Shown here: positions 2,230 to 64,000 of the stretch, piece by piece
Numbering within the stretch: position 1 is the stretch's first letter
Layout of the letters: every line of letters starts with the position of its first letter
Translations under genes and position numbers: made by a program
The notes under the pieces: generated by a model
Seen by the model: only the letters and a program-made list of their open reading frames with translations
Told to the model about the DNA's origin: nothing
Database searches by the model: none
DNA from: Brasilonema sennae CENA114
Lineage (GTDB): Bacteria; Cyanobacteriota; Cyanobacteriia; Cyanobacteriales; Nostocaceae
Assembly (NCBI RefSeq): GCF_006968745.1
Contig: NZ_CP030118.1
Coordinates: 4,306,399 to 4,370,398 of the forward strand
DNA: 64,000 nucleotides
Reading direction: 5' to 3'

Positions 2230-3363
2230 ATGAATATAGCTGAATTGGGAACAATGGAGACAATGGGAAATGCTGCCGAAAATGAAGAACTGTTTATTAC
2301 GTTAGATGCAGTGGCAGAAGATGAGTCCCTAATAGTAGTAGAAAATATAGAAGCCGAAGATCGCGATGGAGACCGGATGGCGGCGGCGCGTCCTTCAGGA
2401 TATAATAAAACCGAGTATGACGATGCTGTCGGCGCGTTTTTTAAAGAAATGGCTCGCTATCCGTTGCTAAAGCCAGATGAAGAGGTGGAATTAGCGCGTA
2501 GAGTCCGGTTTGTGGAAGAAATTAGGGAATTGCAAGCTTCTTTACTTGAAAAGCTCGAAAATCAACCGAGTAAGGAAACTGCTGCTTCCCATCTCGGAAT
2601 GACAGAAAAACAACTGGAACATCGGTTGTATCAAGGGCGGGTTGCAAAACGTAAAATGATCCGCTCAAACCTACGGTTGGTTGTCTCTATTGCTAAACGA
2701 TATTTAAATAGGGGAGTTCCTTTTCTGGATTTAATTCAAGAAGGAGCGATGGGGTTAAATCGTGCAACAGAAAAATTTGACCCCGATAAAGGATATAAGT
2801 TTTCTACTTATGCCTATTGGTGGATAAGACAAGCAATTACGCGGGCAATAGCTAATGATGCGCGGACAATTCGCTTACCAATTCATATTGTTGAAAAACT
2901 TAACAAACTCAAAAAAGCGCAACGAGAACTCAAACAGAGACTAGGGCGCAACCCATCCGAACAGGAAATGGCAGAAGCTTTGGATGTTCCCGCGCCACAA
3001 CTACGCCAACTGCAACAACTACGACGACAAGCACTGTCCCTCAACCACCGTGTGGGAAAAGAAGAAGACACGGAATTGATGGATTTGCTAGAAGATGAAG
3101 ACAACCTCTCTCCAGAAGCCAAAATGAATGAAAGCATGATGCGCCAGGAGATTTGGGAAGTTTTAGGTGACGTACTTACTCCACGAGAAAAAGACGTCAT
3201 CTCTCTACGGTATGGTTTGATTACCAGTGAACCTTGTACCTTGGAAGAAGTTGGTACTATGTTCAATCTTTCCCGCGAGCGAGTACGACAAATTCAAAGC
3301 AAAGCTATGCGAAAGTTACGACGTCCTCACATAGCCAAACGCTTAAAAGGGTGGCTGGTGTAG
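2230..3363 (+). CDS. Group 2 RNA polymerase sigma-70 factor (SigB/C/D/E class)
   Basis: A 377-residue sigma-70 factor. An acidic N-terminal segment of about 60 residues is followed by region 1.2 (DDAVGAFFKEMARYPLL), region 2 (SNLRLVVSIAKRYLNRG, DLIQEGAMGLNRA, FSTYAYWWIRQAITRAI), region 3 (RLPIHIVEKLNKLKKAQREL) and region 4 (LTPREKDVISLRYGL, LEEVGTMFNLSRERVRQIQSKAMRKLRRP). Without a long region 1.1 it fits the non-essential group 2 factors that cyanobacteria use for stress, carbon/nitrogen and dark responses. The subclass cannot be fixed from sequence alone. Start: ATG at 2230 preceded by a GAGGG ribosome site. The region 2.2 core is slightly unusual (AMGLNRATEKFDPDKG, where TLGLxRAVEKFDPTKG is common), but nothing looks broken. 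Confidence 0.93.
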   Translation: MNIAELGTMETMGNAAENEELFITLDAVAEDESLIVVENIEAEDRDGDRMAAARPSGYNKTEYDDAVGAFFKEMARYPLLKPDEEVELARRVRFVEEIRELQASLLEKLENQPSKETAASHLGMTEKQLEHRLYQGRVAKRKMIRSNLRLVVSIAKRYLNRGVPFLDLIQEGAMGLNRATEKFDPDKGYKFSTYAYWWIRQAITRAIANDARTIRLPIHIVEKLNKLKKAQRELKQRLGRNPSEQEMAEALDVPAPQLRQLQQLRRQALSLNHRVGKEEDTELMDLLEDEDNLSPEAKMNESMMRQEIWEVLGDVLTPREKDVISLRYGLITSEPCTLEEVGTMFNLSRERVRQIQSKAMRKLRRPHIAKRLKGWLV

Positions 3364-31415: not shown

Positions 31416-32384
31416 CTACACCCCTAGTTGCTGACGCGATCGCCAATAATGCCAAACAAAACCTGAAAACGCCAATACACCCAAAAAGAACTGGATATCT
31501 GCTGAACCAAGACGGTCTTTACCGTAAAACTCTGGCGGAAAAACTGTCGTGTTATACCCAACAAACACGGCAGAAATAAAACCCATCAAAGCCAAACCTA
31601 GTAAACTGTAGGAAAGAATTTCTTCACCATTTGCAATTGGGAAAATTCGCCGAACCCAACCAAAAGGTGCCACAAGAATGTGCCAGGCACCACCCGCAAT
31701 TAAAATTAAACTTATCCAAATGTGACCACCGATAACATCTTCTAAGTTGTCAACACTTGCCATTCCTAAAAGTGTCCTGGTGCTATCTTTTATGCCAACT
31801 AAGTAGCCGAAGATTGTCTTTGGGTCAAGAGTAGGATTGGTAATCAGGTGGACATTTCCAATGTTGGTGTCATAAATTCCACCAAAAAACATTGCTTTGA
31901 GCACCAGTAGCAATGCACCAAAACCTAGAAAAATCAGATGATGACCTAAGATGAAACCCAATTTCTTGAGATCGTTCCATTCATAATGAAATTTTGCTGC
32001 CCGTCCTCCAGCATCCTTCAAGATAGCTGGGGCGCGAAACACATGAAAAAGTCCCCCTGCGCCCAAAACAGCAGATGCGACTAAATGCAACATTCCAATG
32101 ACAAAGTAAGGATAAGTATCGACAACTTCACCCCCAGCACCTACTCCCCACCCTAAAGTTGCCAAGTGGGGTAACAAAGTGAGTCCCTGCTCATACATTG
32201 GTATGCCTGGGATAAACCGTACCACTTCTAATATGGTCGTTGATCCTACCCAAAACATAATCAAGCCTGCGTGAGCCACGTGAGCGCCCAAAAGCAGACC
32301 AGATAAGTCAATTAAACGAGCATTACCAATTAACCAGGGGGAATCTGTGTATGCTGCAAAGGTTTTATCAGTAGAAATTGCCAC
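31416..32384 (-). CDS. CP43-like chlorophyll a-binding antenna protein (Pcb/CBP, IsiA superfamily)
   Basis: 322 residues with six membrane helices. Shared core-antenna signatures: [105 protein letters not shown] and [11 protein letters not shown]. His residues in the helices (AHVAHAG, PHLATLG, MLHL, GHHLIF, GGHI, AWHI) are the chlorophyll ligands. It lacks the large lumenal loop of true CP43, as expected for accessory antennae. It lies 142 bp downstream of the isiA-like gene and is probably co-transcribed. Such proteins ring photosystem I or feed photosystem II under iron or light stress. Confidence 0.9.
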
Positions 32385-32526: not shown

Positions 32527-33576
32527 TTACGATTCGCTGCTAGCAGTATCACTACCAACAGCATTTAATGCTTTTTCAACTTGTTTGAAGTCAACGCCAA
32601 TGGCTCGCAGTGCGTGCCACAGATGTCCTTGCAAGAAGAAGAAAGCTAAGAAGAAGTGGGCGTTTGCCAACCAAGCACGAGACGTGTACGCGCCATTCGC
32701 CAACTTGACGCTATCGGCAAAATAGGGCGTTACGCCGAATTTGAGTTCTAAAACAGGACCGTAAAATTCCACGGGATAGGCTAAGGTGTTCACCGCACAA
32801 AAGTAAGCTGCAACAAATCCTGCTAAGGCAATACCACCCAAAGAGTAGGAAAGAATGGCTTCACCAGAGAAGATTAAAAGCTTTTTCGCCCAAGCAGCAG
32901 GCTGTGTAAGGATGTGCCAAATACCTCCACCAATGAGCAGAAAACCCACATATATATGACCGCCAACTAAATCTTCTAAGTTGTTAACGCTGGCAAAGTG
33001 GGTTTGATAGCCGTAGATAACAAATGGGTTGAGGGTAGGCTCACTCACGAGTCGGACATCATGAATTGTGGAGTCGTAGAGTCCTCCCCAGAACATTGCT
33101 TTCCCCGCGAGTAGTAAAGCCCCTACTCCCAAGAAAATCAAGTGATGTCCTAAGATAAAGCTGAGTTTTTTGGGATCATCCCATTCAAAGTGAAATTTAC
33201 GAGCGCGACCAGAGGCGTCTTTCAAGTTCCGAGGACCTTTGAAGGTATGGAAGAGCGCACCTGCACCCAAAACAGCAGATGAGATAAGGTGCAAAACCCC
33301 AATCACGAAATAGGGGTAAGTATTCACTACCTGACCGCCTTCTCCCACACCAAAGCCTAAAGTCGCTAAGTGGGGCAGCAAAATCAGCCCTTGCTCACCC
33401 ATCGGTACCGCAGGGTTGTATCGAGAGAGTTCAAACCAAGTAAATGCACCCGCCCAGAGAGTTGTTAGTGCAGCTTGCGCCACATGTGCGCCGATAAATA
33501 AGCCAGAGAGATTAACGAAGCGAGCGTTACCAGCCCACCAATCATATTTGACGTTTCGATTACCGTATGTTTGCAT
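32527..33576 (-). CDS. isiA: Iron-stress-induced chlorophyll-binding protein (IsiA/CP43' family)
   Basis: 349 residues. The N-terminus [20 protein letters not shown] is the IsiA-type start, followed by [104 protein letters not shown] and [20 protein letters not shown]. Six helices with His ligands. In iron-starved cyanobacteria IsiA forms rings around photosystem I and dissipates or captures light. No isiB (flavodoxin) follows. The gene sits between mosaic repeats; its own upstream region is only about 60 bp before repeat sequence begins. Confidence 0.85.
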
Positions 33577-33639: not shown

Positions 33640-34044
33640 TTTTGAGTTGAGGAAAGGGTTTCCCGCTCTCGGGCACGACTGGCTCACCACCTAACTGGCT
33701 CACGCCACATGCACGCCACTTGCTACAACGGGGCGGCAGCTTTTCGGGGGAAACTTCCCCCGAAAACGTGCCTTGGGAACCCTCCGCAGTCGCCACAACG
33801 GTCAAAGCTCGCCGCTTGGGTTGCTTCCCCCGGCAGACTTTGGGGGAACCCCAACGCCAGATCCCTACGGAGGGAAACCCTCCTGCAGGACTGGCTCCGC
33901 AAGGCGCTGCTCTCCGCAACGCAGTGGCTCCTCAACGCGCTTAACCCGCGCACGGTGAGACAGCGCGAATGACGGCTCTCCCGACCTAGGCGACTGCGTT
34001 CGGCAAAGCCCGTGCCGGAGGCATACCCGAAGGGCAGTGGCTCC
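33640..34044. repeat. Mosaic GC-rich repeat upstream of isiA, including right arm (33951-34044) of the 94-bp inverted repeat
   Basis: The longest copy of the family. Positions about 33722-33803 are essentially identical to about 60092-60172 inside the NRPS gene (GCTACAACGGGGCGGCAGCT, then the TTTTCGGGGGAA/TTCCCCCGAAAA hairpin, then CCTTGGGAACCCTCCGCAGT). Then come the GGCAGACTTTGGGGGAACC and GGAGGGAAACCCTCCTGCAG modules. The block ends inside the antenna pseudogene. Several 60-100-codon ORFs here are not genes. Confidence 0.88.
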
Positions 34045-34350: not shown

Positions 34351-34952
34351 TTTGGGTCTATCGTATCAGACTTCTTGCAAACTCTTCTCAAAATACACTG
34401 TGAATTTTTGTAACTCTCTTGCCTGAGATTTTAACCTTTCTTAACAAAACGACAAATCATATCAAGCCTGGTATGTAGCGGGTGCTCGTTAAGCGAGGAG
34501 ATTGTCTAATTGCTTGACTAATCATTCATACTAAATCCGCTTTTGTAACCCCCTTTTGATCCTGGCGACTGGAAGTCGCACGCCAGTTGCTACAACGGGG
34601 CGGCAGCTTTTCGGGGGAAGCTTCCCCCGAAAACGTGCGTTGGAAACCCTACCAAGAGCGCGCTTACTCACCGCCTACGCGGACTAATGGAAAAGGGGGT
34701 CATTGACCCGGATTTGGTATCACTATTGAAAATATTGCGCTAGATAAGATTTTGAACTCCTACCAATTACTCCCCCTACAACGCGCTTGTGCTAACTCCT
34801 GCCCAGACGCTCTTGCAACAAGTCGCAAAGCGAACCGAAGGTTCGCTTTGCGGGAAACTTAGCCTGTGCACTGGCTCCCCTTACACCCCTAATTATTGAC
34901 AAAAGCGGGTTAAGGAAACATGCCACTGGTGAAGTTGCTGCTAAGTATGGTA
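34351..34952. repeat. Gap with mosaic repeat copies and two strong hairpins
   Basis: A mosaic repeat copy is at about 34563-34680, including a perfect palindrome TTTTCGGGGG/AAGCTT/CCCCCGAAAA near 34610-34635. GCAAAGCGAACC-GAA-GGTTCGCTTTGC at 34825-34851 is a 12-bp perfect hairpin and could end transcription from the biosynthetic operon's last gene, which finishes at 34953. No gene was seen. Confidence 0.65.
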
Positions 34953-46900: not shown

Positions 46901-49900
46901 ATCAAACTTGGCTGTTGTGCTTTCTATTAGAAAAGAACTGACACTTAACCCAGTCAACTCTAGTTGAGACATGGGCGCATTCTGAAGTGTAAACATCACT
47001 TGGAATAATGGTGCATGACTCAGATCCCGTTCTGGCTGCAATGCTTCCACCAGCATTTCAAAAGGCAAATCCTGATGAGCGTAGGCATCCATTGCCATGT
47101 CTCGAACACGAGTGAGTAATTCACTAAAGCTCGGATTACTTGCCAAGTTGGTACGCATGACTAAAGTATTGACAAAAAAGCCAATTAACCCTTCAACTTC
47201 CAAGCGATCGCGGTTTGCAATTGGCGAACCCACCAGAATATCTTCCTGTCCTGTGTAGCGGTAAAGCAAGGTATCATAAGCTGCCAACAGTATCATAAAG
47301 AGAGTACAACCTTGCTCCTGGCTCAGTTTTACCAATCTCTCAGTTAACTCAATCGACAGTGCAAACTCTTGATGTGAGCCAGCAAAAGTCTGTACAGCAG
47401 GTCTAGGTCGGTCTGTGGGCAGCACTAACAGGGCTGGTGCATCTTTTAGTTGTTGTTGCCAGTAACTTAGTTGAGTTTGCAGTACATCCCCTTGCAACCA
47501 CTCTCTTTGCCAGATGGTAAAATCTGCGTATTGAATCGGCAGTGGCGCTAAAGATGGAGTTTGACCTTGAGAATAAGCATTGTACAGGGTTTCTAGTTCT
47601 TGGAGAAACACACCCATCGACCAACCATCAGAGACAATGTGGTGCATACACACTAACAAGACGTGTTCTGTCTCTGACAGCACTACTAATCTCGCCCTGA
47701 GTAATGGTTCACTTGCCAAGTCAAACGGTTGAATAGCTTGTAGTTGAGCTAATTGCTGTAAAGCACTTTCTTGTTCACTTGTTGGCAGATGTTGCCAGTC
47801 AATAATTGAAACTGTCCAAGGTATAAATGCTAGAGGCTCTGAAGTTCTTACTATTTCCTGTTCCCTATTCCCTATTCCCTGTTCCCTGTTCCCTGTTAAG
47901 CGTTCCCTAATAATTTGCGTTGGTTGTTCATTAACGCTGACGAAATTGGTACGTAACGCTTCGTGGCGATGAATAATTTCTTGTAAACTTTGCTCTAAGG
48001 CTGCTTGATTGAGAGTTCCTGCTAGACGCAAAGCCAAAGGAATGTTGTAAGAGGGGCTGTTCGGTTCAAATTGATCTAAAAACCACAAACGCTGTTGAGC
48101 AAATGACAGTGGTAAGTCTGTATTCTTGGCTCTTGGTAGAATGGGCGGTGCGGACAGTTCTAAGTTTTGTTGCTGTAATTGATCAAGCGATCGCGCCAAT
48201 TCAGCTACTGTTGCTCTTGCAAACAACTCACGCAATGGTAGTTCCACTTTGAAAATGTTGCGGATACGTGAAACCAGTTGCGTTGCTAGTAGCGAGTGTC
48301 CGCCTAGTTCAAAGAAGTTATCATAAATCCCCACTAGTTCTACTTTCAGCACTTGCGCCCAAGTTTGTGCTAGGAGTTCTTCAATTGGGTTACGTGGGGC
48401 AATATATTTGTCTGTAATTTCGCTGTGTAAATCTGGTGCTCTTAATGCACGGCGATCTACTTTGCCGCTAGGAGTTAGTGGCAAGGACTCCAACATCACA
48501 AAAGCATTTGGCACCATGTACTCTGGCAGCTTTGCTTTTAGGAATTGCCGCAGTTCACCCCCGAAAGTGGGTGTACAGTCCTGATGTGCTACCACGTAGG
48601 CAACTAGGCGTTTATCACCTGGGGTATCTTCGCGGGCAATGATACAACATGTTTCTACATCGCTATGTTGGCTTAATGCTGCTTCAATTTCGCCCAATTC
48701 AATCCGAAAACCGCGTATCTTAACCTGATTATCGATCCGTCCTAAGTATTCGATGTTGCCATCTGGCAGATAACGTGCCAAATCCCCTGTTTTATAAAAT
48801 TTACTCTCTCCTACCTTCTCAAACGGATTGGAGATAAATTTTTCTTGTGTTAACTCTGGACGGTTGAGGTAGCCCCGCGCCAAACAAACACCACCAATGT
48901 ACAACTCTCCTGGCACACCAATAGGTACAGGCTGTAAATATTTATCTAAAATATGAATTTGTGTGTTGGCAATTGGCTTCCCAATTGGAGGAAGTAACGA
49001 CCAAGTGTCCACTGAATCAGTTAGTGTAAAAGTAGTGACTACATGGGTTTCTGATGGCCCATAATGATTGTGCAAAGTACACTCACTGAGTTTGCTAAAC
49101 CATTGAGAAATGGCGGGAGTAATCTGCAACTGTTCCCCAGCAGTAATGATTTCTCGTAGATGACTAGTAACTAATTCACTACCAACAGCGACTTCAGCTA
49201 GTTGTTGTAAAGCAACAAAGGGAAGAAACAATCTTTCAACAGCTTTTTGTTGGAGAAAACCTAATAAAGCCAAGGCATCACGGCGCAATTCCTCTGTAAT
49301 CAACAGCAATGTGCCTCCAGAACACCAAGTAGAAAACATTTCTTGGAAGGAGACATCAAAGCTGATAGGAGCAAATTGCAATGTTTTTGCTCCAGTAGAA
49401 ATAGTATGATTTTGAAGTTGCCACAAGATGAGATTGCAAAGGGCAAGCTGATTCATGGCTACACCCTTGGGTTTACCTGTAGAACCAGAGGTATAAATGA
49501 CATACCCTAAGTTATTCGCTTGTACATCTGTGATGACATTTTCCTGACTCAACTGAGAAACTAGTGGAGCGTCAGTATCTAAACAAACCAGTTGTGCTTG
49601 ATGCTGGGGTAGTCTGTCAACGAGTGGCTGCTGGGTGAGCAACACTAAAACTTGAGCATCTTCTAACATGAAAGCTAAACGCTCAGTAGGATAGTTTGGG
49701 TCAAGTGGCACATAAGCCCCACCTGCCTTAAGAATCCCTAACAGTCCCACGACCATTTCTAAGGAACGCTCGACACACAACCCAACCAATACATCAGCTT
49801 TTACACCCAAGGACTTAAGGTAGTGCGCCAACTGGTTAGCGCGGCAGTTTAATTGGTAGTAAGTAAGTTGTTGATTACCAAACTCCACAGCTACAGCATC

Positions 49901-56035: not shown

Positions 56036-59000
56036 TTACCTTTTTCTCTGAGAGCGATATTGTTGCCTGGATTGTAATTGTTGGTTTCTTAAAGTTTTAC
56101 TTTCACTATAAGATTGACTACGAGATTTTTTTTCATTCATTGTATCTTCTTTTTTGAGTTTAGTACTTAAGTATTGGCTTAAACTATGTATAGTTGGGTA
56201 ATTAAACATATCAACAATGGATAGTTCTAAACCCAATTCTTCTTGCAATTGCTGATTAATTTTTACTAGGAGTAACGAATGACCTCCTAGCTCGAAGAAA
56301 TTATTGTAAATTCCCACCTTTTCTACTTGTAGTGCTTTTTGCCAAATGCCAGCGATGATTTTTTCTGCTTCTGTATTTGGCATTACGTAATCTGACAGTT
56401 CCTGATGTAAATCTGGGTCAGGCAAAGCGCGACGGTCTACTTTACCATTAGGTGTCAGGGGTAAGGACTCCAACATCACAAAAGCAGTTGGCACCATATA
56501 CCCAGGCAGTTTATTGGAAAGGAACTGACGCAGTTCGTCCTTGGTTGGTGTACTTCGACTTCGCTCAGTACAAGTCTGCTCTTTTTGTGGCACTATGTAG
56601 GCGACTAACTGCTTATTCCCTGGAATTTCCTCATGGGCTATGACACAACAGTTCTGCACATCACCATGTTGACCCAATAGAGTTTCTATTTCTGCCAATT
56701 CGATACGAAATCCCCGAATTTTTACCTGATTGTCAATGCGTCCCAGGTATTCAATATTGCCATCCGGTAAATAGCGTGCTAAATCTCCTGTTTTATATAA
56801 TTTTGAATTTTGAATTTTGAATTTTGAATTGTAAAAGGGGTTGGTAATAAATTTTTCCTGAGTTAGTTCGGGACGGTTGAGATAACCTTTTGCCAACCCA
56901 ACACCAGCGATGTGCAATTCTCCTGGCACACCCACAGGCACTGGTTGCAAATTTTCGTCTAAGATGTAAACTTGTGTATTGGCGATCGCTCGTCCAATGG
57001 TCGGTGAAGTTTGATCTTGCTCCTTAGCAACTACCAGCCCAGAAGTTGTGACAACAGTATTTTCAGTCGGGCCATAATTATTTACGACTTGGAAGGGGAT
57101 TAAATCTGATGGATACTGATTAAGCTTATCTCCTCCAGTCAGTATGGTTCGCAAAGCCAAATTTTCAGTCGGCCATTCCAAAGACAATAATTCCTGTGCC
57201 AATGGTGTTGGCAGAAAACTTATAGTAATTTTCTTTGAAATCAACCAGTCTCGTAGCTTCACTAGGGAGCTAAGGAGCTGAGGTTTGACTAGGTGGATAC
57301 TTGCTCCTGCCGTTAGGTAAGGCCATAATTCCCAGACCGCAGCGTCAAATGCTGTTCCTGCTAATTGAGTAGCTTTATCTAATGAAGTGATGTTAAAAGC
57401 TCTTTTGTGCCAGAACACCAAATTCAGCAATGCTTGATGGGCAATCAGCACTCCCTTGGGTTGACCCGTAGAACCGGAAGTATAAATTACATAAGCCAAG
57501 TTATTCGCTTGTGCTTCAGTGATGAGATTATCCTGACTTGACTGAGAAACAAGCTGCCAGTCAGTATCCAAACAAATAAGCTTTGCTTGATGTTGAGCCA
57601 GTCTGTCAACGAGTTTTTGCTGAGTTAGCAACACTGTAACTTGAGCATCTTCTAGCATAAAGTGCAACCGTCCGGTGGGATACTCAGGGTCAAGTGGCAG
57701 ATATGCCCCACCCGCCTTAAGAATACCTAGTAGTCCCACCACCATTTCTATTGAGCGTTCCACACAAATGCCTACTAGCACATCTGCTCCCACTCCCAAA
57801 GACTTGAGGTAGTGTGCCAACTGGTTAGCACGACTATTCAACTGCTCATAGGTTAGTTGTTGATCTTCAAACACAACTGCCACAGCATCTGGTGTGCTCA
57901 AACACTGCTCCTCAAACAACTGATGGATACACTTATCAGAAGGATAATCTGCTTGAGTATCATTCCATTCCACTAATAACTGCTGTTGTTCAGCTGCTGT
58001 CAACAGTGGCAATTGTGAGATTTGCTGCTGTGGGTTAGCAATAATTCCTTCAAGCAATGTCACAAAATGACCAGTCAGTCGCTCAATGGTACTAGCATCA
58101 AACAAGTCAGTGTTGTACTCCCAAAAACCCACCAGCCCAGTGGCAGTGTTCTGCATTATTAAAGTTAAATCAAACTTTGCCGTTGTGCCTTCCGTTATCA
58201 ATGGAGTGACAGTCAACCCAGTCAACTCTACTTGAGATGTGGACGCATTCTGGAGGGCAAACATCACCTGGAATAGTGGTGTATAGCTGAGATCCCGTTC
58301 TGGCTGCAATGCTTCTACCAGCATTTCAAAAGGCAAATTCTGATGAGCATACGCTCCCAAAGCGACTTCTCGAACACGACCCAGTAATTCGCTAAAACTG
58401 GGGTTGCCTGCCAAGTTAGAACGCATGACTAAAGTGTTGACAAAAAAGCCAATTAGCCCTTCTATCTCACTGCGATCGCGGTTTGCAATTGGTGTCCCTA
58501 CCAAAATATCTGCTTGTCCTGTGTAGCGGTAAAGCAGAGTATCATAAGCTGCCAACAGCGTCATAAACAGAGTACAACCTTGCTCCTGGCTCAGTTTTAC
58601 TAATCTATCAGTTAACTCAACTGAAAGTGTAAACTGTTGATATGCCCCAGCGAAAGTCTGCACAGCAGGTCTTGGTCGGTCTGTGGGTAACGACAATAAA
58701 GCTGGTGCGTTTGCTAGTTGTTGTTGCCAGTAATTCAGTTGGCTTTGTAATACATCCCCTTGCAACCAGTCTCTTTGCCAAATTGCGAAATCTGCGTACT
58801 GCACAGCCAGTGATGTTAAAGGTGACGGCTGACCTTGAGAATAAGCATTGTACAGTGCTGCTAGTTCTTGAACAAACACACCCATTGACCAACCATCAAA
58901 GACAATGTGATGCATACACATTAATAAGGCGTGTTCTGTCTCGGACAGCACTACTAATGTTGCCCTGATTAATGCTTCAGTTGTCAGATCAAAAGGTCGT

Positions 59001-62000
59001 TGCGCTTGTTCTTGCGCTAATTGCTGCAAAGCAACTTCTTGTTCACTTGTTGGCAGATGTTGCCAGTCAATAATTGAGACTGTCCAAGGTATAAATGCTA
59101 GAGGGTTTGAAGTTCTTACTATTCCCTGTTCCCTGTTAAGAGTTAAGCGTTCCCTAATAATTTGCGTTGGTTGTCCATCAACTGTGATGAAGTTGGTGCG
59201 TAAAGCTTCGTGACGATGAATAATTTCTTGTAAACTTTGTTGTAGCGTTGCAACTTCAAGAGTTCCGACTAGACGCAAAGCTGAGGGTATATTGTAGAAG
59301 CCGCTGCTCGGGTTTAACTTGTCTAAAAACCATAGCCGTGTTTGGGCAAAGGACAGTGGTAATTCTGCATTCTGTGCTCTTGGTACGATGGGTGATGCTG
59401 TGAGTTCTAAATCCTGTTGCTGCAATTGCCCAATCGATTGCGCAATTGCAGCAACTGTTGGTGCAGCAAATAAGCTACGCAATGGTAGTTCTACTTTCAA
59501 GCTCGTACGCACGCGTGAAACTAGTTGCGTTGCTAGTAACGAATGTCCTCCAAGTTCAAAGAAGTTATCATAAATACCCACTTGCTCTATTTTCAGGACT
59601 TGCGCCCAAATTAGTGACAGAATTTCTTCGATTGGGTTACGTGGGGCAACATATTTGTCTGTAATTTCGCTGTGTAAATCAGGTGCTGGCAAAGCGCGAC
59701 GGTCTAGTTTACCGTTGGGGGTAAGCGGTAGAGCTTCTAAGATAACTATTGCACTTGGCACCATATACTCTGGTAACTTTTCCTTCAGAAAGCCACGCAG
59801 TTCGCTAACTGTGAGTGTCTGCTCTTTTTGAGGCACAATGTAAGCGACTAGGCGTTTGTTTCCAGGAATATCTTCGCGGGCGATCGCACAAGATGCCTGC
59901 ACATGACTATGTTGGCTTAGTACTGCTTCAATTTCACCCAACTCAATGCGGAAACCGCGTATTTTAACTTGATTGTCGATGCGTCCTAAGTATTCGATAT
60001 TACCGTCAGATAAATAGCGTGCTAAGTCTCCTGTTTTGTAAAGGCGGTCAGAATTAAAAGTTTCCCCTCTGCTCCTCTGCTCACGCCAGGTGCTACAACG
60101 GGGCGGCAGCTTTTCGGGGGAAACTTCCCCCGAAAACGTGCCTTGGGAACCCTCCGCAGTCGCCTCAAGGGTCAAAGCTCGCCGGGGGAAGCTTCCCCCG
60201 GCAGACTTTGGGGCAACCCCCGCACGGCGCTGCTCTCCGCAACGCACTGGCTCCTCTGCTCCCCTGCTTCTTTTAAAGGGGTTAGGGATAAATTTTTCTT
60301 GTGTTAACTCACTTCGGTTGAAATAGCCTTGCGCTAAAAGGACACCAGCAATATACAATTCTCCTGGTACACCAACGGGTACAGGCTGTAAATATTTATC
60401 TAGTATATAGATTTGTGTATTGGCAATAGGTCGCCCAATCGGAGGAAGTAGCGGCCAAGTCTCTACTGAATTATTCACAGTAAAACTAGTGGCTAAATGG
60501 GTCTCTGACGGTCCATAATGATTGTGCAATGTACAATCATTTAATCTGCTTAACCATTGAGAAATAGCGGGAGTAATCTGCAACTGTTCCCCAGCGGTAA
60601 TGATTTCTCTCAAATGAGTATTAACTAATTCGCTACCAACAGCAACTTCAGCTAGTTGCTGTAAGGCAACAAAGGGAACAAATAGTCTTTCAACAGCTTT
60701 TTGTTGAAGAAAACCTAACAAAGCTGAGGCATCTCGGCGTAATTCCTCCCCAACTAGGAACAATGTGCCTCCAGAACACCAGGTGGTGAATATTTCTTGG
60801 AAGGAGACATCAAAGTTAATCGAAGCAAATTGCAGGGTTTTTGCTCCACGAGCAATTTTCAGATTGTCCCTATGCCACATAATCAAATTGCAAAGGGCAA
60901 CCTGATTCATGGCTATACCCTTAGGTTGACCTGTAGAACCAGAAGTATAAATTATATAAGCTAAGTTATTTGCTTGTCCGTCGGAGATAAGATTACCCTG
61001 ACTGCACTGGGAAATCAGTTCAGCGTCAGTATCCAAACAAACAAGCTGTGCTTGATAAGAGGCAGGAGAACTCAAGGCCCCCTCTTTCCCCCTGCCCCCT
61101 GCTAAGAGCCCCCCTGCTTCTTCACACTGGGGCAGTCGGTCAACGAGTGACTGCTGGGTCAGCAAAACTGAAACTTGAGCATCTTCTAAAACAAAGCTCA
61201 AACGCTCAGGCGGATACTCAGGATCAAGTGGCAGGTATGCACCACCTGCTTTGAGAATCCCCAGTAGTCCTATGACCATCTCTAAAGAACGCTCTACACA
61301 CAGACCGACCAGGACATCAGCTTCTACACCCAATGAGCGCAAGTAGTCCGCCAACTGGTTAGCGCGGTAGTTTAATTCATAGTAAGTAAGCTGTTCATTT
61401 TCAAACTCCACTGCCACTGCATTGGGTGTATGCTCCACCTGCTCCTCAAACAACTGATGGATGCACTTATCAGAAGGATAATTCACCCCTGTATCGTTCC
61501 ATTCGACAAGTAACTTTTGTTGCTCCTGTTGTGTCAATAGGGGCAACTGGGAGATTTGCTGTTCTGGGTTAGCAATAATACCTTCAAGCAAGGTAACAAA
61601 ATGACCCGTCATTCGCTCTATGGTACTAGCATCAAACAAGTCAGTGTTGTACTCCCAAATCCCTACCAACCCAGAGGCAGCGTTATGCATGATTAAAGTT
61701 AAATCAAACCTTGCATTTGCGCCTTTGATTGGGAATGGACTGACACTTAGCCCAGTCAGTTCTACTCCGGATGTGGGCGCATTCTGGAGGACAAACATTA
61801 CCTGAAACAGTGGTGTATGGCCCAGATTCCGTTCTGGCTGCAATGCTTCCACCAGCATTTCAAATGGCAAATGCTGATGAGAGTATGCCTCCATTGCCAT
61901 TTCACGAACACGACCTAGTAATTCGCTAAAACTGGGGTTGCCTGCCAAGTTAGAACGCATGACCAAAGTGTTGACAAAAAAGCCAATTAACCCTTCTATT

Positions 62001-64000
62001 TCACTGCGATCGCGATTAGCAATTGGCGAACCCACCAAAATATCTTCTTGTCCTGTGTAACGATAAAGTAGCGTATCAAACGCTGCCAACAGCGTCATGA
62101 ACAAGGTGACTCCTTGTTGCTGACTCAGTTGTGTCAGTTCACCAGTTAGCTTCTGTGAGAGTGCAAACTCTTGATATGCTCCGTTGTCAGTCTGCACAGC
62201 AGGTCTGGGTCGGTCTGTGGGTAACGATAATAAAGCTGGTGCGTTTGCCAGTTTTTGTTGCCAGTAATTCAATTGACTTTGTAATACGTCTCCTTGCAAC
62301 CACTGTCTTTGCCAAATGGCGAAATCTGTGTATTGCAGAGGTAGTGGTGCTAACGGTGACGGCTGACCTTGAGAATAAGCTTTGTACAGTGCCGCTAGTT
62401 CTTGGATAAACACACCCATTGACCAGCCGTCTGAGACAATATGGTGCATACACAGTAATAAAACGTGTTCTGTCTCGGACAGCACTACTAATGTTGCTCT
62501 GACTAATGCTTGGTTTGCCAGGTCAAACGGTTGAATAGCTTGTTTTTTTGCTAATTGCTGTGTGGCGATTTCTTGTTCACTGGTTGGCAAATGTGGCAAC
62601 TCAACAACACATACTGTCCAATTCGTCTGTTTTTGAATAATTTGCGTTGGTTGTCCATCAACTGTGATGAAGTTGGTGCGTAAGGCTTCGTGGCGATGAA
62701 TTATTTCTTGTAAGCTTTGTTCTAAGGCTGTCACGCTCAGAGTTCCGACTATATGCAAAGCAAAGGGTATGTTGTAGAAAGCACTGTTCGGCTCGAACTG
62801 GTCTAAAAACCACAGCCGTGTTTGGGCAAATGATAGTGGCAATTCTGCATCTCTTGCCCGCCTTAAAATGGGTAGGGCAGTTAGTTCTAAGTCTTGTTGC
62901 TGTAACTGCTCAATCTCTTGTGCTAATTCAGCAACTGTGGCTGCGGCAAACAAGCTACGCAATGGTAGTTCTACTTTGAAAATGTTGCGGATGCGTGAAA
63001 CCAGTTGTGTTGCTAGTAGCGAGTGTCCGCCCAATTCAAAGAAGTTATTATGAATGCCAACTTGTTCTACTTTTAAGACTTGCGCCCAAATTTGTGCCAG
63101 CATTTCCTCAATGGGTGTGCGCGGGGCGACAAATTTTTCTAGCAGTGTGCTGTCTAACTCCGGTTTTGGCAAGGCGTGGCGATCTACTTTGCCGTTGGGA
63201 GTCAGAGGTAAGGACTGCAGCAGCACAAAAGCACTTGGTATCATGTACTCTGGTAGCTTTGCTTTCAGAAACTGACGCAGTTCTGTGACTGTGGGAGATT
63301 GTTCAATCTGCGGCACTACATAAGCTACTAAACGTTTGTCGCCCGGTTCATCCTCTCGTAGCATCACCACGCTTTCCCACACATCTGGGTGAGAAGCCAG
63401 TAATGCCTCAATTTCTCCCAACTCTATGCGGAAGCCACGAATTTTTACTTGATGGTCAATTCTGCCTAAATATTCAATGTTTCCATCAGAACGATAACGT
63501 GCTAAATCACCCGTTTTATATAAATATTTTCCTGCTTCAAAGGGGCTAGAAATAAACTTTTCTTGAGTCAATTGGGGTTTATTCCAATAACCACGTGCTA
63601 ATCCCACACCACCAATATGTAACTCACCACTAACTCCAATGGGAACAGGTTGTAAATGTTTATCTAAGATATATATCTGTGTATTGGCAATTGGACGACC
63701 AATAGGAACAAGTTTCTCATTACTATTGGGTTGACAAGCCCAAAAAGTTACATCAATTGCCGCTTCAGTTGGCCCATAAAGGTTGTGTAATTCAGCGTTT
63801 AATCGTTCAAAAAAGCATTTTTCTAAATTAATAGATAAAGCTTCTCCGCTACAAATTACCCGTTTGATACTACCACATTTTTCTAGTTCGGTTTCTTCTA
63901 GAAACACTTGCAACATTGAGGGAACAAAGTGAACTGTCGTAATTTTTTCTTGGGCAATTAGTTGGGCTAAATAACGGCTATCTTGATGTCCACCTGGTCT
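56036..64000 (-). CDS. NRPS-1 (NosA-like), partial: ...A(Ser)-T-C-A(Pro/MePro)-T-C-A(Leu)-T; 5' end beyond the right edge
   Basis: The frame stays open to 64000 (RPGGHQDSRY, TTVHFVPSML), so the ATG at 63916 is internal. First, partial A: pocket residues seen H-I-S-L-I-D-K, matching serine. Then T (GGHSLLATQL) and C (HHIVSDGWS). Second A (about 61500-59690): D-V-Q-L-I-A-H-L-A-K, proline type, proposed to take 4-methylproline. Then T and C (HHIVFDGWS). Third A (about 57970-56430): D-A-W-F-L-G-N-V-V-K, the leucine code. Last T (GGHSLLLVKI) and a basic tail ending RSQRKR that probably docks to the PKS. Ser-MePro-Leu followed by a PKS is the NosA/NosB order. No E or MT domain. A GC-rich repeat is inserted in the second A domain. 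Confidence 0.92.
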   Translation of the reverse strand, partial: RPGGHQDSRYLAQLIAQEKITTVHFVPSMLQVFLEETELEKCGSIKRVICSGEALSINLEKCFFERLNAELHNLYGPTEAAIDVTFWACQPNSNEKLVPIGRPIANTQIYILDKHLQPVPIGVSGELHIGGVGLARGYWNKPQLTQEKFISSPFEAGKYLYKTGDLARYRSDGNIEYLGRIDHQVKIRGFRIELGEIEALLASHPDVWESVVMLREDEPGDKRLVAYVVPQIEQSPTVTELRQFLKAKLPEYMIPSAFVLLQSLPLTPNGKVDRHALPKPELDSTLLEKFVAPRTPIEEMLAQIWAQVLKVEQVGIHNNFFELGGHSLLATQLVSRIRNIFKVELPLRSLFAAATVAELAQEIEQLQQQDLELTALPILRRARDAELPLSFAQTRLWFLDQFEPNSAFYNIPFALHIVGTLSVTALEQSLQEIIHRHEALRTNFITVDGQPTQIIQKQTNWTVCVVELPHLPTSEQEIATQQLAKKQAIQPFDLANQALVRATLVVLSETEHVLLLCMHHIVSDGWSMGVFIQELAALYKAYSQGQPSPLAPLPLQYTDFAIWQRQWLQGDVLQSQLNYWQQKLANAPALLSLPTDRPRPAVQTDNGAYQEFALSQKLTGELTQLSQQQGVTLFMTLLAAFDTLLYRYTGQEDILVGSPIANRDRSEIEGLIGFFVNTLVMRSNLAGNPSFSELLGRVREMAMEAYSHQHLPFEMLVEALQPERNLGHTPLFQVMFVLQNAPTSGVELTGLSVSPFPIKGANARFDLTLIMHNAASGLVGIWEYNTDLFDASTIERMTGHFVTLLEGIIANPEQQISQLPLLTQQEQQKLLVEWNDTGVNYPSDKCIHQLFEEQVEHTPNAVAVEFENEQLTYYELNYRANQLADYLRSLGVEADVLVGLCVERSLEMVIGLLGILKAGGAYLPLDPEYPPERLSFVLEDAQVSVLLTQQSLVDRLPQCEEAGGLLAGGRGKEGALSSPASYQAQLVCLDTDAELISQCSQGNLISDGQANNLAYIIYTSGSTGQPKGIAMNQVALCNLIMWHRDNLKIARGAKTLQFASINFDVSFQEIFTTWCSGGTLFLVGEELRRDASALLGFLQQKAVERLFVPFVALQQLAEVAVGSELVNTHLREIITAGEQLQITPAISQWLSRLNDCTLHNHYGPSETHLATSFTVNNSVETWPLLPPIGRPIANTQIYILDKYLQPVPVGVPGELYIAGVLLAQGYFNRSELTQEKFIPNPFKRSRGAEEPVRCGEQRRAGVAPKSAGGSFPRRALTLEATAEGSQGTFSGEVSPEKLPPRCSTWREQRSRGETFNSDRLYKTGDLARYLSDGNIEYLGRIDNQVKIRGFRIELGEIEAVLSQHSHVQASCAIAREDIPGNKRLVAYIVPQKEQTLTVSELRGFLKEKLPEYMVPSAIVILEALPLTPNGKLDRRALPAPDLHSEITDKYVAPRNPIEEILSLIWAQVLKIEQVGIYDNFFELGGHSLLATQLVSRVRTSLKVELPLRSLFAAPTVAAIAQSIGQLQQQDLELTASPIVPRAQNAELPLSFAQTRLWFLDKLNPSSGFYNIPSALRLVGTLEVATLQQSLQEIIHRHEALRTNFITVDGQPTQIIRERLTLNREQGIVRTSNPLAFIPWTVSIIDWQHLPTSEQEVALQQLAQEQAQRPFDLTTEALIRATLVVLSETEHALLMCMHHIVFDGWSMGVFVQELAALYNAYSQGQPSPLTSLAVQYADFAIWQRDWLQGDVLQSQLNYWQQQLANAPALLSLPTDRPRPAVQTFAGAYQQFTLSVELTDRLVKLSQEQGCTLFMTLLAAYDTLLYRYTGQADILVGTPIANRDRSEIEGLIGFFVNTLVMRSNLAGNPSFSELLGRVREVALGAYAHQNLPFEMLVEALQPERDLSYTPLFQVMFALQNASTSQVELTGLTVTPLITEGTTAKFDLTLIMQNTATGLVGFWEYNTDLFDASTIERLTGHFVTLLEGIIANPQQQISQLPLLTAAEQQQLLVEWNDTQADYPSDKCIHQLFEEQCLSTPDAVAVVFEDQQLTYEQLNSRANQLAHYLKSLGVGADVLVGICVERSIEMVVGLLGILKAGGAYLPLDPEYPTGRLHFMLEDAQVTVLLTQQKLVDRLAQHQAKLICLDTDWQLVSQSSQDNLITEAQANNLAYVIYTSGSTGQPKGVLIAHQALLNLVFWHKRAFNITSLDKATQLAGTAFDAAVWELWPYLTAGASIHLVKPQLLSSLVKLRDWLISKKITISFLPTPLAQELLSLEWPTENLALRTILTGGDKLNQYPSDLIPFQVVNNYGPTENTVVTTSGLVVAKEQDQTSPTIGRAIANTQVYILDENLQPVPVGVPGELHIAGVGLAKGYLNRPELTQEKFITNPFYNSKFKIQNSKLYKTGDLARYLPDGNIEYLGRIDNQVKIRGFRIELAEIETLLGQHGDVQNCCVIAHEEIPGNKQLVAYIVPQKEQTCTERSRSTPTKDELRQFLSNKLPGYMVPTAFVMLESLPLTPNGKVDRRALPDPDLHQELSDYVMPNTEAEKIIAGIWQKALQVEKVGIYNNFFELGGHSLLLVKINQQLQEELGLELSIVDMFNYPTIHSLSQYLSTKLKKEDTMNEKKSRSQSYSESKTLRNQQLQSRQQYRSQRKR
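56800..56835. repeat. Heptamer tandem repeat (TTTTGAA) translated in the Leu A domain of NRPS-1
   Basis: Four near-perfect TTTTGAA units encode SKFKIQNSK, placed between A6 and A7, the same loop that holds the large insertion in the preceding module. Confidence 0.85.
59115..59160. repeat. STRR heptamers translated in the last C domain of NRPS-1
   Basis: A shorter array of CCCTGTT units plus GTTAAGCGTT encodes LTLNREQGIVRTS at the site homologous to the NRPS-2 array. Confidence 0.8.
60058..60272. repeat. Mosaic GC-rich repeat inserted in frame in the second A domain of NRPS-1
   Basis: The loop between core motifs A6 (GELYIAGVLLAQGYFN) and A7 (YKTGDL) here has about 74 residues, against about 9 in the sister A domain of NRPS-2. 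The extra DNA includes about 80 bp identical to 33722-33803 and the palindrome GCCGGGGGAAG/CTTCCCCCGGC. An 11-bp direct repeat CTCCTCTGCTC (60072-60082 and 60251-60261) flanks it. No stop codon results and YKTGDL is regained in frame. Confidence 0.9.
61063..61135. repeat. C-rich low-complexity insert in the second A domain of NRPS-1
   Basis: Encodes about 24 additional residues (CEEAGGLLAGGRGKEGALSS and PASY) between LVDRLPQ and QAQLVCLDTD, which are adjacent in the sister A domain. The DNA has CTGCCCCCTGC-type units. Confidence 0.8.

Follow-up and report, generated by a model that had tools for sequence, protein, structure and literature searches.

Small dispersed repeats of filamentous cyanobacteria were reportedly described by Elhai in 2008. 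In Nostoc, heptamer repeats are over-represented in non-coding regions, according to the accessible part of one study (PMC4692102). The nearest in-frame palindromes in the accessible parts of the published accounts are the Rickettsia palindromic elements (PMC10969869, PMC3733652); one of these accounts also mentions REPs within genes, and lists, as a feature of REP/REPIN sequences, one end marked by a GTAG or CGTC tetranucleotide (PMC3733652). Extra sequence within adenylation (A) domains is known from the so-called interrupted A domains, which, as the accessible text has it, contain catalytic domains, methyltransferases among them, as a rule between A8 and A9 and sometimes between A2 and A3 (PMC11355689). 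Among the literature matches listed, which comprised titles and abstract openings with most subscription journals outside, none described repeats at the A6-A7 linker.

In this study we analysed a stretch of 64,000 nucleotides from Brasilonema sennae CENA114, hereafter the window, in which an earlier note had pointed out a GC-rich interspersed repeat lying in frame within the A6-A7 linker of an NRPS A domain. Both the repeat and its location are confirmed, and the frame of 3411 aa stays open. The observation is genuine and richer than first described, since the insert is nested, the tandem repeat that hosts it is older and the loop is recurrently invaded, and it comes with a good natural series of states. 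We consider it likely that nested non-autonomous palindromic repeats have entered, as a tolerated insertion, a recurrently invaded A6-A7 loop.

Regarding the described systems, the insert shares with the Rickettsia palindromic elements, as far as their accessible descriptions go, the character of an interspersed palindromic repeat in frame within a protein likely still functional. It is unlike them, by a comparison with their descriptions, in that its family was seldom found in recognisable genes among the sites examined, consists of modules of about 38-47 bp nested in one another and is cyanobacterial. With REP/REPIN sequences the family has in common that its palindromes are short and present in many copies. 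The linker tandem repeats of 7 and 8 bp resemble the short tandem heptamer repeats of filamentous cyanobacteria, in whose genomes short dispersed repeats co-occur, but unlike the heptamers over-represented in non-coding regions in the accessible text of PMC4692102 they lie in frame in NRPS genes and have other elements nested inside. Extra sequence inside an A domain is common to the window and the interrupted A domains; unlike the latter, as portrayed in the accessible text, the window carries at A6-A7 a peptide that is encoded by repeats and predicted to be disordered.

Anatomy of the composite insert

Comparison by eye with copies in the same genome divides the insert into four units, namely an outer parent P1, a module alpha, an inner parent P2 and a module beta (Table 1). 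The insert has a GC content of 66% against 43% in the host gene, and within it there are inverted repeats of 18-19 nt. Measured against empty copies, alpha is 42 bp and beta 39 bp, while other empty copies taken as reference give 38 bp for the beta of the window and 44 bp for P2; the bare P1 string is 47 bp. Not all of these module lengths are multiples of three, so that frame keeping looks like a trait of the surviving events and not of every element. On the minus strand the frame in use is the only stop-free one, and on the plus strand all three frames are open. Folded as RNA the insert reaches -98.8 kcal/mol (z -4.7; 0 of 200 shuffles equally good), and such a strong fold makes an effect on translation possible.

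Several figures of the earlier note can now be sharpened. The copy with which it gave about 80 bp of identity does exist, but the longest identical run is 74 bp (60091-60164, equal to 33721-33794). The roughly 65 extra residues become 57 by comparison with the relative G002, 67 by comparison with a model of four A domains and 70 by comparison with linkers of 8 aa, the length most often met. The 11-bp direct repeat said to flank the insert is real (60072-60082 and 60251-60261), yet it is part of the 8-bp tandem repeat and not specific to the insert; because this tandem repeat is kept in the insert-free G002, the 11-bp repeat gives no evidence of a target-site duplication. Checked for the terminal inverted repeats and the target-site duplication of a MITE, the insert has ends that by eye are approximately CGCCAG...CTGG, and the tandem-repeat surroundings mask any target-site duplication, which is therefore unprovable here.

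Table 1. Positions of the described features, counted from the first nucleotide of the window
Feature	Positions	Strand	Remarks
8-bp tandem repeat (CCTCTGCT type), left part	60062-60081		also in G002, without the GC-rich insert
GC-rich composite insert	60082-60253	+	outer parent P1 plus everything nested inside; 172 bp by motif boundaries
Module alpha	60104-60145	+	42-bp palindrome nested in the P1 loop
P2, inner parent element	60159-60233	+	split by beta; nested in P1
Module beta	60171-60210	+	palindrome of 38-40 bp depending on boundary choice; nested in P2
8-bp tandem repeat, right part	60254-60269
NRPS gene	56036-64000	-	Condensation, AMP-binding and PP-binding domains (Pfam); extends past the window edge
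Adenylation domain 2	59708-61393	-	carries the insert; conserved motifs apparently intact (by eye)
A6-A7 linker, adenylation domain 2	60041-60274	-	78 aa (87 of 206 measured linkers have 8 aa)
Further in-frame insert, adenylation domain 2	61055-61126	-	CEEAGGLLAGGRGKEGALSSPASY; partly predicted disordered
A6-A7 linker, A domain 3	56798-56833	-	AATTCAAA-type tandem repeat (YNSKFKIQNSKL)
Short in-frame insert, C-terminal subdomain of A domain 3	56549-56572	-	CTERSRST
Composite copy outside NRPS genes	33712-33852	+	93% identity across 141 bp
Second copy outside NRPS genes	34579-34650	+	outer parent + alpha; 94% across 72 bp

Host gene and predicted structure

In the whole genome the NRPS frame is stop-free over its 3411 aa, 2654 of these codons being inside the window, and Pfam lists Condensation, AMP-binding, AMP-binding_C and PP-binding in the protein, that is, NRPS domains alone. 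The genome is 8.2 Mb in size and its chromosome is a single 7.78-Mb contig, which, together with the presence of the parent at the same place in the relative G030, makes an assembly artefact unlikely. The linker of adenylation domain 2 is bounded by EKFIPNPF and YKTGDL, and the four other linkers of the host gene and of the neighbouring NRPS gene are far shorter. An NREQG-type in-frame repeat is also present in Condensation domains of two NRPS genes (window 47822-47905 and 59090-59152), apparently at an equivalent position in both, one copy being longer.

The structure prediction proposed by the earlier note as a check was carried out with AlphaFold, with 65 natural A domains. The mean pLDDT of adenylation domain 2 is 83.1, the core blocks mostly reach 90 or more, and three stretches fall below 50: residues 379-444 within the linker insert, residues 94-106 within the other in-frame insert, and the four residues at the C-terminal end. 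A Foldseek search matched the model to solved A domains (E 2.5e-54), and the alignments to two solved chains skip the insert, breaking at query residues around 352-426. In the model, the A domain itself is thus predicted with confidence and the linker insert as disordered. An auxiliary catalytic domain was looked for in the insert and none was found, by predicted disorder in AlphaFold and by NRPS domains alone in Pfam.

States of the site in relatives

The comparison with relatives lacking the insert, also suggested in the earlier note, yielded both an empty and an intermediate state. The orthologous site of G002 has the tandem repeat alone, in flanks 97% and 94% identical to those of the window, while that of G030 has the tandem repeat plus P1 (flanks 85% and 84% identical). 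In G004 the site holds a different repeat type between flanks that are 93-96% identical. The tandem repeat without the element is also found in Nostoc sp. FACHB-973 (L131) and in N. foliaceum (L133). Relative to G002 the insert adds a net 171 bp (57 aa) to the window gene, in frame, and P1 in G030 has a net length of 45 bp, likewise a multiple of three. Since G030 has the parent and closer relatives are without it, an independent insertion, a loss or a domain exchange must be assumed.

These states suggest a succession in which a short tandem repeat would first lengthen the A6-A7 loop, and non-autonomous palindromic repeats of this cyanobacterial lineage would then insert there, one inside another. 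In-frame, stop-free insertions would be tolerated, probably as neutral changes, and translated as a disordered peptide, while selection would remove those out of frame or containing stops. Such tolerance is expected from a loop that seems to lack structure and lies away from the conserved core, and in cyanobacterial NRPSs it would let many repeat families settle there safely, time and again. In short, the loop has the look of a soft spot in which repeats can be parked by genomes without visible breakage of the protein. The proposal that insertions of this kind generate new protein loops stands for the loop itself, which has literally been added, and not for a gain of function. The locus documents how dispersed repeats have invaded a modular megaenzyme step by step, nested and in frame, while relatives still show the empty and the intermediate state, and the question of repeats as seeds of protein novelty thereby becomes testable within one enzyme family.

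An unlikely alternative, although the best placed of those considered, is that the insert damages the domain and that the NRPS is an early pseudogene with its frame open by chance. Over 1550 codons common to the window, G002 and G004, dN/dS is 0.30 for window-G002, 0.27 for window-G004 and 0.22 for G002-G004, values from which we judge that the gene is still under constraint. The changes assigned to the window lineage are 85 synonymous and 97 non-synonymous, against 50.5 and 31.5 in the G002 lineage (Fisher p = 0.034 on rounded counts). This relatively greater amino-acid change would fit damage and makes a slight loss of constraint possible in the window lineage; domain exchange could be another cause of it. 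One stop-free frame in three on the minus strand could also be luck, and the strong hairpins of the insert RNA might hinder translation. However, a stop-free frame of 3411 aa, the dN/dS of 0.30 and the long linkers kept in open frames by many related A domains all speak against damage and for a tolerated insertion.

The A6-A7 linker as a recurrent insertion site

For a census of inserts we built a model from four A domains of the window, which gave 294 hits, 217 of them full, and 207 distinct A domains; the linker was measurable in 206 (195 cyanobacterial). Deduplication used one 120-residue stretch, so that near-identical domains may remain among them. Inserts of 10 aa or more number 85 across the 207 domains; 54 of these lie at the A6-A7 linker, and the next two sites have 9 and 8. 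Linker length is 8 aa in 87 cases, at least 11 aa in 90, at least 15 aa in 76 and at least 20 aa in 60, and the 78 aa of the window are the longest of all 206. Long linkers occur in 88 of the 195 cyanobacterial domains and in 2 of the 11 others, a difference that is not significant (Fisher p = 0.12), and a special association with cyanobacteria is thus not proven. The linkers are moreover not independent, owing to paralogues and recombination, and short/long changes on the tree number 53, compared with 62-76 in 30 shuffles.

By a fixed criterion, a 7- or 8-bp tandem repeat is present in 36 of the 76 linkers of at least 15 aa and in none of the 76 equal-length upstream controls; the window linker itself lies below this criterion (0.79). 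A second element inside the tandem repeat was seen by eye, for example in linkers L189, L174, L101, L137 and L132; the classes given to linker repeats are descriptive and rest on peptide patterns. When the 90 long linkers were compared with 47 repeat loci of the Brasilonema genome, ten matched, with E up to 1e-6. Besides the window linker these include two with parent-element matches, namely L106 of G030 and L160 of Cylindrospermum NIES-4074, the latter an unrelated A domain with a relative of the parent in the same loop. L092, from another Brasilonema A domain, matches other GC-rich repeats recurring in 28 of the 47 loci, and the remaining six match other short repeats.

The strong concentration of inserts at one loop might also be taken to mean that they are selected for, as landing pads or recombination junctions aiding NRPS domain exchange, or as a means of tuning interdomain movement. 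The fast turnover seen in G004, with another repeat type between closely similar flanks, would agree with this idea, as would frequent A-core recombination in the accessible part of PMC8097286. That same text, however, describes diverse exchange boundaries, those of McyB mostly running from A3 to A9 (PMC8097286), no junction at the linker is demonstrated in the present data, and the concentration of inserts in a disordered loop is explained by tolerance alone. We therefore hold selection for the inserts to be improbable, a little more so than damage, and retain the tolerated insertion of nested repeats.

A broader generalisation is more speculative and, in our estimate, doubtful: the A6-A7 linker of cyanobacterial NRPS A domains might be a general landing site, where tandem repeats come first and mobile palindromes then nest in them in frame. 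The fast-evolving disordered loops so derived from genome repeats might mark the limits of exchangeable A-core units or make exchange at these limits easier. On the practical side, the loop takes up to about 70 additional residues in natural enzymes, which is useful for the tagging or engineering of NRPS A domains.

As a separate observation from the census, L116 (G055) has two A domains, each with an insert of about 103 aa in its C-terminal subdomain. The one insert of the two that was scanned is a PilZ domain (PF07238, E 1.4e-12). PilZ is the usual c-di-GMP-binding fold, and with such an insert the A domain would be of an unusual type, regulated or interrupted.

Copies elsewhere and the search for a mobiliser

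A 215-bp query has 78 matches in its own genome, beyond what chance would give (best non-self E 4e-57), a number that includes the self-match and the reverse matches of palindromes. Merging matches not more than 150 bp apart leaves at least 43 distinct places, a minimum in view of the 40 candidates scored out of 210. Simple parents occur elsewhere in the genome (L252, L257 and L258), as do parents without alpha (L242, L245 and L248) and a parent nested in a parent (L247). With a 182-bp query, 22 of 59 genomes were matched, the own one included, and all seven genomes of the genus were positive; at most 14 candidates were scored per genome, so that copy numbers there are lower bounds.

To see how often the repeat lies within genes, we merged three locus sets (30 + 30 + 18) into 46 own-genome sites, beyond which further matches exist. 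At 15 of the 46 sites the repeat is spanned by a frame of 158 aa or more without a stop, in a test that is blind to genes broken by insertion. Pfam, applied to 14 of these frames (L024, with masked bases, being left out), matched three, the host NRPS and two TnpB relics, and assigned no family to the other 11. When 30 of the loci were re-examined, 15 had an open frame of 150 aa or longer that overlaps the repeat, and no gene was added. In a protein search, a long frame was seen for the NRPS copy alone, with 3411 aa, whereas the frames of the other 54 matches do not exceed 154 aa.

The resemblance to Rickettsia palindromic elements suggested by the earlier note accordingly holds for the in-frame palindromic mode of working, and the family is indeed a palindromic interspersed repeat, but class membership does not follow, frequent in-frame occurrence in unrelated genes not being found among the 14 scanned frames. 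That the insert belongs to that class, or that it is spliced out of transcript or protein in the manner of an intron or intein, is very improbable, more so than damage or selection. In favour of this reading, it is palindromic, interspersed and in frame in one gene; against it, recognisable genes are scarce among the spanning frames, the host protein has NRPS domains alone in Pfam, Rfam at gathering scores gives no family at the insert, and the kept frame needs no removal of it.

As for a mobiliser of the nested repeats, the genome has five Y1 transposase (Y1_Tnp) genes, which NCBIfam sorts into one RAYT above cut-off (NF047646, in L240) and four IS200/IS605 transposases. Matches to the insert at these five loci lie on both sides of the gene in L240 and in one 21-bp piece in L238. 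The RAYT gene (L240 1339-1908) has beta-like palindromes on either side (1095-1143 and 2983-3031), and a GTAGGGTGGGCAATGCCCACC-type repeat that by eye flanks it more closely. As this nearest repeat differs from the insert, no mobiliser is claimed, and the link between the RAYT and the palindromes of the insert is circumstantial.

Two further observations concern the copies and their surroundings. The same GC-rich mosaic lies in the zinc ribbon of the two TnpB relics (L075 1311-2069 and L025 1206-2018); by eye, the zinc-ribbon motif resumes after the insert in one and is frame-shifted in the other, and both relics appear truncated. Away from the insert, Rfam at gathering scores reports IsrR antisense RNA (RF01419) in the window, with two matches at 31802-31979 and 33006-33183, which suggest two adjacent isiA-type genes.
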